DNA from: Chloroflexota bacterium
Lineage (GTDB): Bacteria; Chloroflexota; Dehalococcoidia; Lucifugimonadales; Lucifugimonadaceae
DNA length: 40,134 bases
Assembly (NCBI GenBank): GCA_002721675.1
Contig: PBLC01000005.1
Location: 9,019-49,152 of the forward strand
Reading direction: 5' to 3'
Shown here one piece after another: positions 2,550 through 39,308 of this stretch (its first letter is position 1; the number at the start of each line of letters is the position of its first letter). Made by a program: the position numbers and the translations under genes. The notes below the pieces were generated by a model. The model was not told the origin of the DNA. It did not search any database and saw only the letters and a program-made list of their open reading frames with translations.

Positions 2550-3317
2550 ATGACAAAAGATAATGGAAAAGTTGCAATAGTTACAGGAGGTGGATCAGGC
2601 ATTGGAAAAGCATCTGCAATAGCACTTTTAAATGATGGTTATTCGGTAGTAATTTCAGGAAGAAGAGAAGATCCGCTTAAAAAAACAATTGAAGAATGTG
2701 GTGAAATGGATAATCATGAGAAAATTTTAGGAATTACTTGTGATGTTGGAGATCCAAATTCTGTCAAAAACCTTTTTAAAAGTACTATTGAAGAATTTGG
2801 AAGGCTAGATGTACTTTTTAATAATGCTGGTGGTGGAGCCCCCAAAAAACTCATAGAAGATTTAACATATGAAGAATGGCAAAATGTAGTTGATGCAAAT
2901 CTAACAGGAACCTTTTTGTGTTCTCAGGAAGCGATAAATATTATGAAAAGCCAAAACCCTATGGGAGGCAGGATAATAAATAATGGTTCAATTTCTGCAT
3001 ATGCACCTAGGCCAGACTCAGCCCCTTACACTGCTACCAAGCATGGAGTTAGCGGATTAACAAAATCTATTTCTTTAGATGGAAGAAAATATAATATTGC
3101 ATGCAGTCAAATAGATATTGGAAATGCTGCAACAGACATGACGGAAAGAATGAAGAATGGGGTTCCCCAAGCTAATGGATCAACGATGGTAGAGCCTACA
3201 TTTGATGTAAACCATGTTGCAGAGGTCGTTGTAAATATTTCTAATTTTCCTTTAGAAACTAATGTTCAATTTATTACAATAATGGCCACCAAAATGCCTT
3301 TCATTGGAAGAGGTTAG
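2550..3317 (+). CDS. Short-chain dehydrogenase/reductase (SDR)
   Basis: [16 protein letters not shown] (TGxxxGIG), NNAGGG, YTATKHG (YxxxK). Start refined to ATG 2550, preceded by TGGAG RBS, rather than ORF-track 2523. Confidence 0.92.
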
Positions 3318-3318
3318 T

Positions 3319-4821
3319 ATGAAAATTGGCTTAACATGCTTCATGCATGAGTCAAATAATTTTATTAAAAAAACCACGCCATTAGAAAATTTCAAGGATC
3401 CTTCCTTTGGTGATTTTCTACACGGTGATCATATAGTTGATCATTTTAGAGGTGGGAATCATGAACTTAGTGGTTGTATTGATGAAATAGAGAAACAGGG
3501 TAATACTTTTATTCCAAAATTTTGCGGTATAGCAACTCCTTCTGGGACTGTTGAAAAGTATGCTTTTGACTATATTGTAAACAGAATAGTGGATGAAATA
3601 AATAAAGACGAAATGGATGGCTTAATAATTAATCTTCATGGAGCTACAGTATCAGAAGAGTATCTTGATGTAGATGGAGAAGTTTTATTTAGATTAAGAA
3701 ATAAAATGGGGTCCAAATTTCCAATAATTTGTACTTTGGATAAACATGCAAATATTTCTACTAAAATGTTTGAAAATGCAGATATATTAGTTGTTTTTAG
3801 GACATGTCCCCACCTCGATACTTATGATAGAGGTGTAGAGGCAGCCAAGCTAATGAAGCAGATGTTGAATAATGAATTGAGACCAACTGGGACATTTATT
3901 GCTCCTCCTATGATGATAAACATGACAAAGCAAAATACTTTTGAAGAGCCTGTGTCTAAAATAATAGAAGATATGGAATTTTTATCTAATGACTCTTCAG
4001 TAGTATCTGCAAGTTTTGCTTTAGGTTTCCAATTTGCAGATGTGCCCGAACTTGGAGCCTCCTTTATTGTTTATACAAATGATAATTCCGTACTTTCTAG
4101 AGAAAAGTGCGAATGGGTTTCAAGTAGAGCTTGGAAGAATAGGGAAAAGTATAATTTGGATGCTTATGAGGTAGAAGAAGCTGTAAAAATAGCTAGAGAA
4201 TCTAGAGAATCTCCAGTTGTCCTTAATGACGTTGGGGACAACACTGGAGGAGGTAGTTCAGCAGATTCTACTTTTCTTTTGCATGAGATAGTTAGGCAGA
4301 ATGTAGAAAATTATTGCACTGTATTTTTTGATCCTGAATCAGTATCAATGTGTGTAGATTCTGGAATAGGCTCCACTTTAAAATTAAGGATAGGCGGAAA
4401 AGTTGATGCCCAACATGGTTCTCCAGTTGAATTAGAAGGCAAAGTAATTAATATAACTGATGGTACATGGGAAGATAGCCAGATAAGGCATGGTGGTTAT
4501 ACAAAATATAATCAAGGTCCTACAGTATTATTTGAAACACAAAATAAAGGTTCAATTATCTTGACTTCACTTAGACAGCCACCGCAAAGTATTGGTCAAA
4601 TTACTCACATTGGAATTGATCCGTCTAAAAAGAAACTAATTACAACTAGAGGTGTTATTCTTCCTCGGCCTGCATATGATCCATTTGCTGCTAAAACAAT
4701 GTTAGTAAACACAAAAGGGACAACAACTGCTGATTTAAAAAATCTAAGTTTTAAAAATATAAAGAGAGATCTTTACCCTTTACAGAACCCTTCTTTTCAG
4801 CCTGGATTAAATGAAGTTTAA
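3319..4821 (+). CDS. M81 family metallopeptidase / MlrC-like protein
   Basis: MKIGLTCFMHESNNF N-terminus, LHGATVSEEY, TLDKHANIS, RTCPHLDTYDRG, DVGDNTGGGSSADST, typical of MlrC/M81. ATG at 3319 abuts the SDR stop. Confidence 0.9.
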   Translation: MKIGLTCFMHESNNFIKKTTPLENFKDPSFGDFLHGDHIVDHFRGGNHELSGCIDEIEKQGNTFIPKFCGIATPSGTVEKYAFDYIVNRIVDEINKDEMDGLIINLHGATVSEEYLDVDGEVLFRLRNKMGSKFPIICTLDKHANISTKMFENADILVVFRTCPHLDTYDRGVEAAKLMKQMLNNELRPTGTFIAPPMMINMTKQNTFEEPVSKIIEDMEFLSNDSSVVSASFALGFQFADVPELGASFIVYTNDNSVLSREKCEWVSSRAWKNREKYNLDAYEVEEAVKIARESRESPVVLNDVGDNTGGGSSADSTFLLHEIVRQNVENYCTVFFDPESVSMCVDSGIGSTLKLRIGGKVDAQHGSPVELEGKVINITDGTWEDSQIRHGGYTKYNQGPTVLFETQNKGSIILTSLRQPPQSIGQITHIGIDPSKKKLITTRGVILPRPAYDPFAAKTMLVNTKGTTTADLKNLSFKNIKRDLYPLQNPSFQPGLNEV

Positions 4822-5657
4822 ACTTTATAAAAATCTGACCCATTATTAAAGAAAAAATCTTCTCTTTCATCATCAGAAAATTTTTCAGTAATATTTTTTG
4901 CTAAATTTAATACATATTCATAAGAATTCTTAATTAAACATACTGGCCAATTGCTTCCGTACATTATCCTTTTTTTTCCAAAAGAATTTATAATTTGAGA
5001 AGAATATTTATCTACCACACCTAAAGATTGGTTATCATTCATCTCTTCAATTATCCCTGAAATTTTGCATGTTAATTTATTTATTTTTGCAAGTTCATTA
5101 ATTTCTGTGGCCCATGGTTCAAACTTATTTGTTGCTATTTCAGGCTTAGCAATATGATCAATTACTCCATTTAGGTCAGGAATTTTATCGTATACTTGGT
5201 GGATATATTTTAGATGGTTTGGTCTCACTAAAAAATCAAAATTGATTTTTCTTTTTGATAGCACTTTTAAACCATTTAGTACTTTAGGATCAATAATCCA
5301 ACTTTCATCTTCTTCATCGTGCCATACATGCCTTATACCAACAAATTTTTTATTTTTTTGGAATTTATCTAATTTATATTCAATTTTTGGACTTTTTAAG
5401 TCAATCCAGCCTACAATTCCACTAATTATTGAAGAATTATTGGCTATATTTAAGAGCCATTCCGCTTCACCTTCTGACTGATGGGCTTGGACACAAATAG
5501 TGCCCACCACTCCATTTCTTTCAATCTCATTAACTAGATCCTCATATAGAAAATTCTTGTTAATCTTTTTAGATTCATTAGAAGGTAGTTCTTTTATCCA
5601 ATCGTATGATCTTAGAGAAAGATCCCATAAGTGATGGTGAGTATCAAGAATTTTCAT
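4818..5657 (-). CDS. Amidohydrolase-2 family (COG3618-like metal-dependent hydrolase)
   Basis: MKILDTHHHLWDL N-terminal HxH motif, FVGIRHVWHDEEDESW, GVIDHIAKPE, MYGSNWPVCL (D/N-W-P motif). Confidence 0.88.
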   Translation of the reverse strand: MKILDTHHHLWDLSLRSYDWIKELPSNESKKINKNFLYEDLVNEIERNGVVGTICVQAHQSEGEAEWLLNIANNSSIISGIVGWIDLKSPKIEYKLDKFQKNKKFVGIRHVWHDEEDESWIIDPKVLNGLKVLSKRKINFDFLVRPNHLKYIHQVYDKIPDLNGVIDHIAKPEIATNKFEPWATEINELAKINKLTCKISGIIEEMNDNQSLGVVDKYSSQIINSFGKKRIMYGSNWPVCLIKNSYEYVLNLAKNITEKFSDDEREDFFFNNGSDFYKV

Positions 5658-6346
5658 GAATTAATTTTTATATAACCTATTTCTGGATAAGGTCTTACTG
5701 GATTTGGAAAAGCTGCATCTGAATACCAAAGTACTCCATTATTAATAGAAAGACCATGAGGATCCGGGCCCCCATCTGGAACATCAATTTGTTCCAGTTT
5801 ATCTCCTGTAACTTTATTATATTTTACGATATTCCTATCCACTCTGTCAGAGCACCATATTGATTCCCCTTCTATCGCAAGTCCATGAGGAGATTGATCA
5901 ATATCAAACTTGAATAATTCTTTAAACGAGTTAGGATCTACTAAAATCAACGCTGTAGGATTGAATGCAGTGATCCATAGTTTGCCTTGGTCCCATTCAA
6001 GTCCGTGAACCCCGCCACCATCAGGAGTTGGAAACCTAGAAACTATTTCCCCAGAATCTAAATTAACTTTTAGAATCCAGTTCATATGCGTATCTGTTCC
6101 TCTGAATGTTCGTGCATCAGTACGACCATTTGAAGCAAGCCACATATAACCATCTCCAATAGTAATGCCAGACCCATTTTCGCAAGTCGTAGGAATACTT
6201 TTTTTTGATGTTCCTTGTCGATCTACAATGAAAACATTATCGGTTTTTTGATCTATAACAAAAAGGTCATCTTCAAACCATTGCAATCCATTTGGCATAT
6301 CAATGCCACATTCGAAAGCCGGTATAAAATCTACTAAGTTTTTCAT
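5654..6346 (-). CDS. SMP-30/NHL/Vgb-like beta-propeller protein
   Basis: Repeated propeller segments: MPNGLQWFEDDLFVIDQKTDNVFIVD, HGLEWDQGKLWITAF, SPHGLAIEGESIWCSDRVDRNIVKYN, DPHGLSINNGVLWYSDA. Overlaps the amidohydrolase by 4 bp. Confidence 0.75.
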   Translation of the reverse strand: MKNLVDFIPAFECGIDMPNGLQWFEDDLFVIDQKTDNVFIVDRQGTSKKSIPTTCENGSGITIGDGYMWLASNGRTDARTFRGTDTHMNWILKVNLDSGEIVSRFPTPDGGGVHGLEWDQGKLWITAFNPTALILVDPNSFKELFKFDIDQSPHGLAIEGESIWCSDRVDRNIVKYNKVTGDKLEQIDVPDGGPDPHGLSINNGVLWYSDAAFPNPVRPYPEIGYIKINS

Positions 6347-36590: not shown

Positions 36591-37466
36591 TTGAAATATT
36601 TTAGGAAGCAGAATTCAATAATAAATGACGAATGGTACTCATCTTTAATTGCCTTTAATGAGAAATCATATTATGAATTAGGGCTAGACGATTTCAGGGA
36701 ATTATATTTAATGGCTAAGGAATTAAATATTACTCCAGATCAGTATGTTAATAATTTAATATCCGATAATAAGTTATCAGTTTTTGATAGTGATATTGAT
36801 GAGTTATCAATGTTATCTCCAATATTTCCACAAGAAGTGTGGGCTGCGGGAGTAACTTATAGTGATAGCATGAGAGAACGTCAAGCTGAAAGTGATACGC
36901 CTGATGTATATGCAAAAGTATACTCTGCAGATAGACCAGAAATATTTTTTAAAGGAACTGGGGAAAGAATGCAAGGCCCTAATGAAGAATTGGGTATAAG
37001 AGAAGATTCTGGATGGGATGTTCCTGAGTCAGAATTAGCAGTAGTAATTATCGATGGAGAAATAGCAGGATATACTATAGGAAATGATATGAGTAGCAGA
37101 TCAATAGAAGGAGAAAATCCTTTATATCTTCCTCAAGCAAAAGTTTACAATAAGTCTTTTTCATTGGGTCCTTGTATTGTCTCTGCAGAACAAATTGGAG
37201 ACCCTCAGAATCTAAAAGTAGAACTTATGATTACTAGAAAAGGTGACATTGTTTTTCAAGGTGAATCATCAACATCTCAGATGAAAAGGAATGTGTTTGA
37301 ATTAACAGAATGGCTTCAAAAGAGTAATGATTTACCTCCAGTTGCTGTTTTAATGACTGGCACTGGAATAATTCCTCCACAAGATTTTACTTTACAAGAA
37401 GAGGACATCGTGAGTATTAATATAGAAAAAATAGGCACATTAACAAATAAAATAGTATTAGTTTAG
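36591..37466 (+). CDS. Fumarylacetoacetate hydrolase (FAH) family protein
   Basis: EVWAAGVTYSDSMRER, PEIFFKGTGERMQGPNEELGIREDSGWDVPESELAVVIIDGEIAGYTIGNDMSSRSIEGENPLYLPQAKVYNKSFSLGP. TTG start abutting the dnaK stop. Confidence 0.88.
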   Translation: MKYFRKQNSIINDEWYSSLIAFNEKSYYELGLDDFRELYLMAKELNITPDQYVNNLISDNKLSVFDSDIDELSMLSPIFPQEVWAAGVTYSDSMRERQAESDTPDVYAKVYSADRPEIFFKGTGERMQGPNEELGIREDSGWDVPESELAVVIIDGEIAGYTIGNDMSSRSIEGENPLYLPQAKVYNKSFSLGPCIVSAEQIGDPQNLKVELMITRKGDIVFQGESSTSQMKRNVFELTEWLQKSNDLPPVAVLMTGTGIIPPQDFTLQEEDIVSINIEKIGTLTNKIVLV

Positions 37467-38473
37467 ATTTTCTTCCATTTTGATCCTTCAGAGTTATCTT
37501 CTATTTCAATATTATTTGCTATTAATATATCCCTGATTTGATCAGACATACCCCAATCTTTTTTTAGCCTAGCCTCATTTCTAATATCAATTAGCAAATC
37601 TATTTCTACATTAACTTTTTCATCTTTTTTTTCATCTAATTCAATTTTTAAAATTTCTTCAGCCTCTCCTAAAGGTTTATATTCTGAATTTATTTCATTA
37701 ATGCTCATAGTCTCTCCATTATTTATTTCGATTACACCTTTTAGAGATTTAAGTAAAACTTTCCCTTTTCCGTCAACTCTTATGGAGGAATCATTTAGAT
37801 CAAAAGTAATAGAGGTGTGCTCTTCAATGCCAATCATTAACACATCTTTATTTTTTATTAAATTATCAAATCTCTTTTTTCCAATAAAACAATGAGAAGT
37901 ATCATGATCTCCTCCCTCCTTATTGTTAAAATGGGGTACAACAATAGTTTTTTTATCAAGAAAACTTAGTAAGTCTAGTCCAGGAATTAATTTAGGTGTT
38001 TCTCCAACTTTATAAATTTCATATACAGGAATTACATAGGACCCAAAAGTTAGAGCCGCTGCACTTGAAAAAGCTAATATTCCACCATTCTTTATTTTTG
38101 ATTCTAATAGTGAATTTATTCCATATTTATTCCAAATTTTTAAAGCATATGTAGGACTTCCTGGTCCAGAAAAAATAAAATCAGAATTAATTATATTTTT
38201 TTTAATATTTTCATCATACGAATTTTCATCAGGAAAATTTATTGGTTCTATTTTTAAATTAACTTTTTCTTGAAAATATTTAATTATTTTATTGGATAAA
38301 ATATTGTGATTCTCCTGAAAGCCAAAGGGAGTATCTAATAAAAAATTATTATTTGATTTGGAATCAGAATTATTTATTAGATTTCTGTATAATTTGGCCA
38401 TATGTGGAGATGTTTCTCCAGATCCAAACAGAGTTATAATCCTAGATTTAGTAGTTATTCTATTTTCTTTCAA
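37463..38473 (-). CDS. Peptidase S51/cyanophycinase-like (class I GATase-fold) protein with a CysRS C-terminal-like domain
   Basis: N-terminal part: IITLFGSGETSPHM, LDTPFGFQEN, SDFIFSGPGSPTYAL, GGILAFSSAAALTFGSYVIPVYEIYK, VVPHFNN. C-terminal 48 aa: VEIDLLIDIRNEARLKKDWGMSDQIRDILIANNIEIEDNSEGSKWKKI, resembling the end of cysteinyl-tRNA synthetase. Confidence 0.8.
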   Translation of the reverse strand: MKENRITTKSRIITLFGSGETSPHMAKLYRNLINNSDSKSNNNFLLDTPFGFQENHNILSNKIIKYFQEKVNLKIEPINFPDENSYDENIKKNIINSDFIFSGPGSPTYALKIWNKYGINSLLESKIKNGGILAFSSAAALTFGSYVIPVYEIYKVGETPKLIPGLDLLSFLDKKTIVVPHFNNKEGGDHDTSHCFIGKKRFDNLIKNKDVLMIGIEEHTSITFDLNDSSIRVDGKGKVLLKSLKGVIEINNGETMSINEINSEYKPLGEAEEILKIELDEKKDEKVNVEIDLLIDIRNEARLKKDWGMSDQIRDILIANNIEIEDNSEGSKWKKI

Positions 38474-39308
38474 AAAACTTCCCCTCTATCCTTTGATTAA
38501 TTATTTTATAGACTAATTTTGGCTTTTGAGCATGAATATCATGATCGCCATTTAATCTTTCAATATCAATCGTAACATCACTATCATAGATGAATGTTAA
38601 ATCTGTGTTGTACTTTACTAATATTAGCAGCAAGGGAACTTTGATATTTTTTAAATTTGAAATGTAGTCATTTTCCCATAAACTCTCAAGTATTTTGATA
38701 TGATTATCTAAACTTAATCTTTTGGTAATCTTATTATTCTCATCTACAGAAAATATACTGAATTGGCCCAATATTGCTTCTTCTGACCAATCAGGCCAAT
38801 TTTTTCTTAATCTATCCAACATAATATCTTTATCCATGCCGTCTAAATCAGGTGGTCTTAATTTTTCCAATGCCTCTTTTTTAGATTCAAAATTTCCTTT
38901 TAAATTAATTGCACCCCCATCTATTCCTATACATCCTATTATTCTTTCATTAGCGTGCTGACAAATTGATACCCCAAGGTCACCACCCATAGACTGACCA
39001 ATTATAATGATATTTTTTAAATTTTTCTTTTTAATAAAATTTAGTACATCACAAGATAGGGACTCTATAGAATATATACCTTTAGGCTTATCAGTTAATC
39101 CGTGCCCTCTTAAATCCAAGCAATAAATGTCAAATTTATTGTTATTAAATTCTTTAACTAATGGAATCCATAGATATGCTGATGAAGACAATCCGTGTAA
39201 TAATAATAGAGTAAAATCAGGATTTTTAACTTTTCTTTCTAAGTAATGGAATTTTATTGAAAGTTCAGATGACTGATCAGAAGGAAGATATATATACTTA
39301 GAAATCAA
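38460..39308 (-). CDS. Alpha/beta hydrolase
   Basis: LLLLHGLSSSAYLW, CLDLRGHGLTDKP, IIGQSMGGDLGVSI nucleophile elbow, GDHDIHAQKP catalytic His. TTG start. Confidence 0.88.
   Translation of the reverse strand: MISKYIYLPSDQSSELSIKFHYLERKVKNPDFTLLLLHGLSSSAYLWIPLVKEFNNNKFDIYCLDLRGHGLTDKPKGIYSIESLSCDVLNFIKKKNLKNIIIIGQSMGGDLGVSICQHANERIIGCIGIDGGAINLKGNFESKKEALEKLRPPDLDGMDKDIMLDRLRKNWPDWSEEAILGQFSIFSVDENNKITKRLSLDNHIKILESLWENDYISNLKNIKVPLLLILVKYNTDLTFIYDSDVTIDIERLNGDHDIHAQKPKLVYKIINQRIEGKFFERK

Follow-up and report, generated by a model that had tools for sequence, protein, structure and literature searches.

An S51-type serine hydrolase with the anticodon-binding tail of cysteinyl-tRNA synthetase: a putative tRNA-Cys-addressed enzyme in Chloroflexota and Actinomycetota

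A gene of a Chloroflexota bacterium encodes a protein that starts with a peptidase S51/cyanophycinase fold, continues through a disordered linker and ends with a 48-aa C-terminus of the type found in cysteinyl-tRNA synthetase (CysRS). Our main reading is that this protein is an S51 serine hydrolase addressed to tRNA-Cys, most likely one that deacylates aberrant aminoacyl- or peptidyl-tRNA-Cys, and we put its probability at roughly 0.45. The tRNA-Cys address is well supported, while the reaction is one that we infer; the protein probably acts on tRNA-Cys or is controlled by it. A link to tRNA-Cys through an S51-type hydrolase joined to a CysRS anticodon module had been proposed from the DNA letters by an earlier reader (hereafter, the original prediction). 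Homology, the predicted fold and the recurrence of the fusion across many genomes now support it, and the strongest support comes from the selective retention of the anticodon-reading residues.

Gene and Domain Organization

The gene lies in a window of 40,134 nucleotides, which is the whole stretch of DNA that was analysed, and the open reading frame was confirmed there at the position first proposed for it (Table 1). An assembly artefact or a frameshift joining two genes is ruled out by the same open frame in many independent genomes. An AlphaFold2 (AF2) model of the full protein has a mean pLDDT of 79 and a pTM of 0.73. The tail might have been the canonical end of the S51 fold; instead, it is predicted to be a separately folding module beyond the disordered linker. 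The linker evolves faster than both domains and under relaxed selection in most of the pairs compared (dN/dS), its length varies widely among lineages, and in many relatives it is replaced by a helical region of about 100 aa. The dN/dS values are 0.04-0.16 for the S51 domain and 0.12-0.31 for the tail, and both are, as judged from these substitution rates, under purifying selection.

The helical region was seen between the S51 domain and the tail in L087, L092, L126, L148 and other long members of the family, where it carries the pattern ...LExxIxxWSxDTxxSDExDRARxxLRxMIVRLG.... An hhalign comparison (P = 0.006, collinear) is suggestive of a decayed CysRS helical-bundle domain in this middle region.

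Table 1. Features of the fusion gene, its product and the adjacent hydrolase gene, in window coordinates
Feature	Coordinates	Strand	Basis or remark
Alpha/beta hydrolase gene, 282 aa	38460..39308	(-)	Pfam Abhydrolase_1; 14 nt shared with the start of the fusion gene
Shine-Dalgarno-like GAGGGG	38481..38486	(-)	7 nt upstream of the TTG of the fusion gene; read directly
S51-CysS_C fusion gene	37463..38473	(-)	336 aa, TTG start; frame also open in many independent genomes
S51/cyanophycinase-like hydrolase domain, residues ~10-264	37682..38446	(-)	Pfam PF03575 and AF2 model matches
GPGSP loop, residues 103-107, predicted oxyanion/substrate loop	38153..38167	(-)	G103, G105, S106 and P107 invariant in 94/94; role inferred from the S51 fold
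Presumed nucleophile Ser137 (SSAAA)	38063..38065	(-)	Invariant in 94/94; aligns with the Ser of SAG in other S51 proteins
Family-specific YE[IV][YF]KxG insert, residues 151-157	38003..38023	(-)	Y151, E152, K155 and G157 invariant in 94/94
Presumed catalytic His181	37931..37933	(-)	Invariant in 94/94 members
Glu217-Glu218, candidate third triad residue	37820..37825	(-)	217 is D/E in 93/94; 218 is E in 79/94
Variable linker, residues 265-288	37610..37681	(-)	Predicted disordered; pLDDT <50 over 268-288
CysS_C, CysRS-type anticodon-binding domain, residues 289-336	37466..37609	(-)	Sequence, profile and fold matches
R298, R302, W307, D311 (E. coli CysRS R423, R427, W432, D436), predicted to read G34	37541..37582	(-)	Alignment; contacts from PMC12684709
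R314, D326 (E. coli R439, D451)	37496..37534	(-)	Invariant in 88/88 (alignment)

The CysRS-Type Tail

The last 48 aa had been read as the extreme C-terminus of CysRS, and sequence, profile and predicted-fold comparisons all find CysRS there; the possibility that the last ~50 aa bear no similarity to it, which the original prediction had raised against itself, falls away. In a phmmer search, residues 282-335 matched the C-termini of CysRS entries in the PDB (E 8e-9 for 3tqo, 4e-8 for 6ujd), and the C-terminus matched the NCBIfam cysS model with an E of 3e-8. With Pfam CysS_C, the tail of the window protein scores 16.1 bits, below the cut-off of 23; this cut-off is passed by orthologues of the same genus, 34 of 50 family members match CysS_C, and a profile built from 50 members retrieves five CysRS sequences at 3e-12 to 8e-7. 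Modelled alone by AF2, the tail reaches a pLDDT of 91. The best PDB match of this model is 1u0b_B, from the E. coli CysRS:tRNA-Cys complex (TMq 0.84, rmsd 1.3 Å, 40% identity, Foldseek E 4.5e-3), and the second best is again a CysRS, 3sp1. On sequence and model together, the tail is homologous to the CysRS anticodon-binding domain, and chance or low-complexity similarity is ruled out by the E-values, the fold and the conservation among 88 members. The coordinates originally assigned to the 48 aa (37463-37609, with the stop codon) stand, but the amino acid string quoted for them does not, as it corresponds to residues 292-336.

The protein itself is not a cysteinyl-tRNA synthetase: the cysS models match solely its C-terminal part, from about residue 250 onward, and find in it no class I catalytic domain with HIGH and KMSKS. 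It is like the C-terminal anticodon domain of CysRS (E. coli 1u0b, Coxiella 3tqo, Pfam CysS_C) in sequence, fold and all published G34-contact residues; it differs from CysRS in having no Rossmann catalytic domain, zinc site or HIGH/KMSKS, and in carrying the module on a hydrolase. Nor does it replace CysRS, because the genome contains a complete cysS at another locus, a point that the original prediction had left to be checked. The gene was found at G000:C6:1158-2501 (490 bits against a cut-off of 340) and carries HLGH, KMSKS and a C-terminal domain of its own. With a complete cysS also in most of the relatives searched, the fusion as a replacement for a missing cysS is ruled out. Two full-length cysS genes were seen in one genome of the window's genus (G002:C33:824-2203 and G002:C46:20157-21497).

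Some other CysS_C matches of odd length near the window's clade were rejected as relatives of the fusion. Those in G063 (L072 542-2827) and G065 (L071 509-2725) are CysRS of about 740-760 aa with, by eye, a glycosyltransferase-2-like C-terminal extension beyond the anticodon domain, and the match in G091:C2 is a cysS fragment at a contig end. A free-standing CysS_C ORF of 62 aa (L073 1697-1885, in G072:C195) lies downstream of a glutamate-synthase-like FAD oxidoreductase, and most of its anticodon-contact residues look kept by eye. RNA-dependent cysteine synthesis (SepRS/SepCysS) occurs in some Chloroflexota (PMC5424206), but a role linked to it was rejected because its reported distribution is far narrower than that of the fusion family.

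Retention of the Anticodon-Reading Residues

In 1u0b, G34 of tRNA-Cys is contacted by hydrogen bonds from Arg427 and Asp436, by stacking of Trp432 and by a water network at Arg423 (PMC12684709, citing Hauenstein et al. 2004). The tails of 88 non-redundant tailed members, thinned at about 85% identity, were aligned with E. coli CysRS. All published G34-contact positions are retained in the window protein; among the 88 tails, the three charged ones are always kept, and position 432 is always aromatic (33 W, 32 Y, 23 F). The tails have a mean pairwise identity of 37%, and their only invariant positions (88/88) are R423, R427, D436, R439 and D451 in E. coli numbering. The overlap of these invariant positions with the four published G34 contacts has a P of 0.002 (hypergeometric). 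R439 and D451 presumably face C35 and A36 of the tRNA-Cys anticodon.

The same residue set is found in the CysRS of the relatives, a comparison that is illustrative because those sequences were picked by a loose motif already containing most of these residues; on that evidence alone, the retention could be a requirement of the fold. A control is offered by a Bacillota family of membrane proteins, which we take to be YqeB-like (after an InterPro label) and which, like the fusion, carry a CysS_C tail without being synthetases. In this family (11 sequences, many of them close relatives), R423, R439 and D451 are kept, whereas R427, the aromatic residue at 432 (W432 in E. coli) and D436 are lost. 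A membrane-protein architecture ahead of CysS_C was not found in the window protein, where the S51 domain takes that place (Pfam, AF2 model). Since the membrane-protein family keeps the domain without R427, aromatic 432 and D436, the G34-reading trio is no requirement of the CysS_C fold. That all of the S51 fusions retain this trio points to genuine binding of the tRNA-Cys anticodon. From this pattern of conservation, it is likely that the tail binds tRNA-Cys(GCA).

The Hydrolase Domain

The N-terminal domain matches Pfam Peptidase_S51 (PF03575) with 32.8 bits against a cut-off of 23.9 (E 7e-8) and thus belongs to S51. Its identity had been recognized correctly in the original prediction, but not its extent: the domain does not stop at ~230 aa but runs to about residue 264. 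The significant Foldseek matches of the AF2 model are all S51 structures (from E 2e-14), among them 6nqc, the cyanophycinases 3en0, 7uqw and 7uqv, and PepE-type dipeptidases including PepE (6a4r). The fold of residues 10-264 is like that of 6nqc, a cyanophycinase-like exopeptidase of an acI-B1 actinobacterium (TM to target 0.77), and of the cyanophycinase CphB (3en0, 7uqw; TM to target ~0.70), and shares with them the nucleophile Ser, the His and the Asn/Pro loop. Identity to these proteins is 15-19%, and the fusion family differs from them by SAAA in place of SAGA, by the YEIYKxG insert, by the linker and by the tRNA-Cys anticodon domain. A true cyanophycinase is ruled out, with 20.6 bits for TIGR02069 against an equivalog cut-off of 126.6.

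The SSAAA context of the presumed nucleophile, pointed out earlier as a departure from the usual xSAGA, is real and family-wide: the motif reads S-A-A-A/T/S instead of S-A-G-A, and A139 is present in 92 of 94 members. The YE[IV][YF]KxG motif is absent from two outgroup S51 proteins, one of which aligns a Tyr at position 151. Known catalytic triads are Ser120-His157-Glu192 in PepE and Ser133-His168-Asp196 in MccG (PMC9239234). With the Ser and the His kept and Glu217 or Glu218 as the candidate third residue, the fusion family looks catalytically competent from its sequences.

Distribution and Evolution

A search for the domain pair across genomes, suggested in the original prediction, found that the fusion is widespread in Chloroflexota and Actinomycetota and not a one-off. 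The family profile at E <= 1e-20 matched 100 of 399 genomes of Chloroflexota and 29 of 398 of Actinomycetota (the phylum of L016), tallies that count profile matches and include tailless members; at the same threshold, it matched 0 of 150 genomes in the Bacillota sample. Eight genomes of the window's genus, its own included, share this architecture (the other seven proteins are 50-79% identical to the window protein), as do four further families of the order (28-34% identity) and MAGs of Ca. Actinomarina and Acidimicrobiales. In the window's genus the gene is stable, syntenic and single-copy, and the fusion is kept in small genomes (0.6-1.3 Mb). In a plasmid search, tailed members also turned up on large replicons of Streptomyces and Nonomuraea, for which two public records list the protein as 'hypothetical protein'. 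The sole match of a phage search was a cysS-like tail in an Enterococcus phage. This CysRS-like C-terminal tail of phage Efs 1-1-1 (OR846600.1 45629-45775, match H10) has 41% identity over 49 aa.

In a quick FastTree analysis of the S51 domain, the window's genus groups with Ca. Actinomarina, apart from the other families of its order; horizontal transfer between the two lineages is suggested, tentatively, by this placement. In one Chloroflexota subgroup (L154-L160, L172), the protein ends directly after the S51 domain. Because this subgroup is nested inside tailed members in the tree, its tail was probably lost.

A Conserved Operon Partner

The alpha/beta-hydrolase gene next to the fusion gene recurs elsewhere. 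A profile search placed such a gene on the same strand as the fusion gene, either overlapping it or no more than about 65 nt away, at 29 of the 94 non-redundant family loci; it lies upstream at 28 of them and downstream at L168. Of the linked loci, 7 belong to the window's genus, 1 to another family of its order (L031), 13 to other Chloroflexota and 8 to Actinomycetota; among them are L126, L128-L130, L092, L099, L103, L110, L144 and L147. The control was about 300 kb of DNA surrounding cysS and other loci, in which the hydrolase profile matched solely two loci, both themselves family members. The partner retains a GQSxG nucleophile elbow and a conserved His near the C-terminus. By this comparison of loci, the alpha/beta hydrolase is a conserved operon partner of the fusion gene in two phyla.

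The gene order pyruvate kinase - hydrolase - fusion // FAH-family hydrolase - dnaK - grpE is conserved in the window's genus. Genes beyond the hydrolase-fusion pair differ between loci, and tRNA, thiol-synthesis or translation genes were not consistently present near the family loci. ZnuABC genes were seen near the family in four Actinomycetota loci and in one Chloroflexota locus, the latter with a FUR-family regulator, and FUR, CbiQ and an ABC ATPase were seen in Actinomarina. Such metal-uptake neighbours, at L078 (G082) 2747-5937, L231, L232, L238, L239 and L005 2967-4947, may be due to chance; CysRS is a zinc enzyme.

Proposed Function and Alternatives

In the proposed mechanism, the captured CysRS anticodon-binding tail would grip the GCA anticodon of tRNA-Cys, and the flexible linker would give the hydrolase access to that tRNA's 3' end. 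Ser137 and His181 would hydrolyse the ester or amide of the aminoacyl or peptidyl group at this end, and wrong, damaged or blocked Cys-tRNA-Cys would be deacylated, possibly with the co-transcribed alpha/beta hydrolase taking part. The proposed action is like that of the freestanding deacylases YbaK, ProXp-ala, AlaX and DTD, which hydrolyse aminoacyl-tRNA in trans; these differ in having folds unrelated to S51 and in recognizing the tRNA mainly by its acceptor end (ProXp-ala, for example; PMC10164551) instead of by a captured anticodon domain. MccG is an S51 peptidase that gives resistance to microcin C and hydrolyses the amide between Asp and a nucleotide phosphoramide (PMC9239234). Because it hydrolyses aminoacyl-nucleotides, the S51 fold can act next to a nucleotide; MccG differs in that no tRNA-binding domain is reported for it, in an Asp as the third triad residue and in its isoaspartyl-nucleotide substrate.

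Some points count against a deacylase. One Chloroflexota clade has the hydrolase without the tail, so that its catalysis need not involve tRNA-Cys. The lack of consistent tRNA, thiol-synthesis or translation neighbours also weighs against the proposal. The S51 enzymes of known activity that we are aware of cut amide bonds after Asp, not tRNA esters. Moreover, CysRS is an enzyme with little requirement for editing, which leaves the need for a deacylase of tRNA-Cys unproven. We propose hydrolysis at the tRNA 3' end, with deacylation of aberrant aminoacyl- or peptidyl-tRNA-Cys, only tentatively. To speculate further, the acyl group could be oxidised or persulfidated cysteine, and the Asp-like preference of S51 would, also speculatively, suit cysteine sulfinate. 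The link to 'aminoacyl-linked peptide metabolism' named in the original prediction is likewise putative. A wider picture, in which an ancient two-enzyme system of Chloroflexota and Actinomycetota has a hydrolase that finds tRNA-Cys via a CysRS reader and clears a specific aberrant product together with its partner alpha/beta hydrolase, is doubtful; the product might, for instance, be stalled peptidyl-tRNA-Cys or a modified cysteine, such as an oxidised or persulfidated one.

The tRNA-Cys may instead be a regulator and not the substrate. The tail would then sense tRNA-Cys (or its charging, hence the cysteine supply) and switch an ordinary S51 peptidase or amidase that acts on a small peptide or a cysteine-containing metabolite. 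The kept anticodon-reading residues would fit this too, as would the dipeptidases and exopeptidases among S51 relatives, the existence of tailless relatives and the widely differing linker length across lineages. However, the tail alone contacts solely the anticodon loop, which by itself does not report charging, and cysteine-metabolism neighbours were not found at the family loci; we regard such regulation as unlikely. Alternatively, the tail could have been reused as a structural or protein-binding module and have lost its contact with tRNA, as may hold for the CysS_C membrane proteins, which keep the domain after losing the G34 contacts; the tail is also dispensable in one Chloroflexota clade. 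Against this stand R423, R427, D436, R439, D451 and the aromatic 432, present in 88/88 although the tails otherwise diverge to a mean identity of 37%. Compared with a sensing peptidase or a transferase, loss of tRNA binding is the rival least compatible with these conservation data, and we consider it improbable.

Still somewhat less probable is a Cys-tRNA-dependent transferase, in which Ser137 would take the cysteinyl or peptidyl group as an acyl-enzyme and transfer it to an amine as part of a biosynthesis whose product would be handled by the alpha/beta hydrolase. A serine nucleophile with a tRNA-Cys address would suit this chemistry, aminoacyl-tRNA-dependent ligases and cyclodipeptide synthases are known kinds of enzyme, and the constant pairing with a second hydrolase gene resembles a small pathway; yet S51 proteins are hydrolases, and no further biosynthetic genes travel with the pair. 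Finally, MccG-like detoxification of aminoacyl-nucleotide antibiotics, with an incidental tail, is very improbable: MccG and standalone S51 homologues do cleave isoaspartyl-nucleotides (PMC9239234), but an anticodon reader would be useless to a small-molecule detoxifier, and the gene is stable, syntenic and single-copy in the window's genus, not accessory-like there.

Implications of a tRNA-Cys-Addressed Hydrolase

Both halves of the protein are of known kinds; the combination, its conservation and its operon partner are new on the open-access literature searched, in which no description of an S51-CysRS fusion was found. Trans-acting quality-control enzymes for tRNA are known for Ala, Pro, Thr, Ser and D-amino acids, and to our knowledge none of them is dedicated to tRNA-Cys. 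Cysteine is the most easily oxidised and modified of the coded amino acids. If the two-enzyme system outlined above is real, the fusion protein would be the first quality-control enzyme dedicated to tRNA-Cys, and the first tRNA-specific one on the cyanophycinase/class I amidotransferase fold. A tRNA-Cys-specific checkpoint, or a tRNA-Cys-dependent reaction, becomes directly testable with one purified protein, and a large family recorded publicly as hypothetical protein gains a lead to its function.
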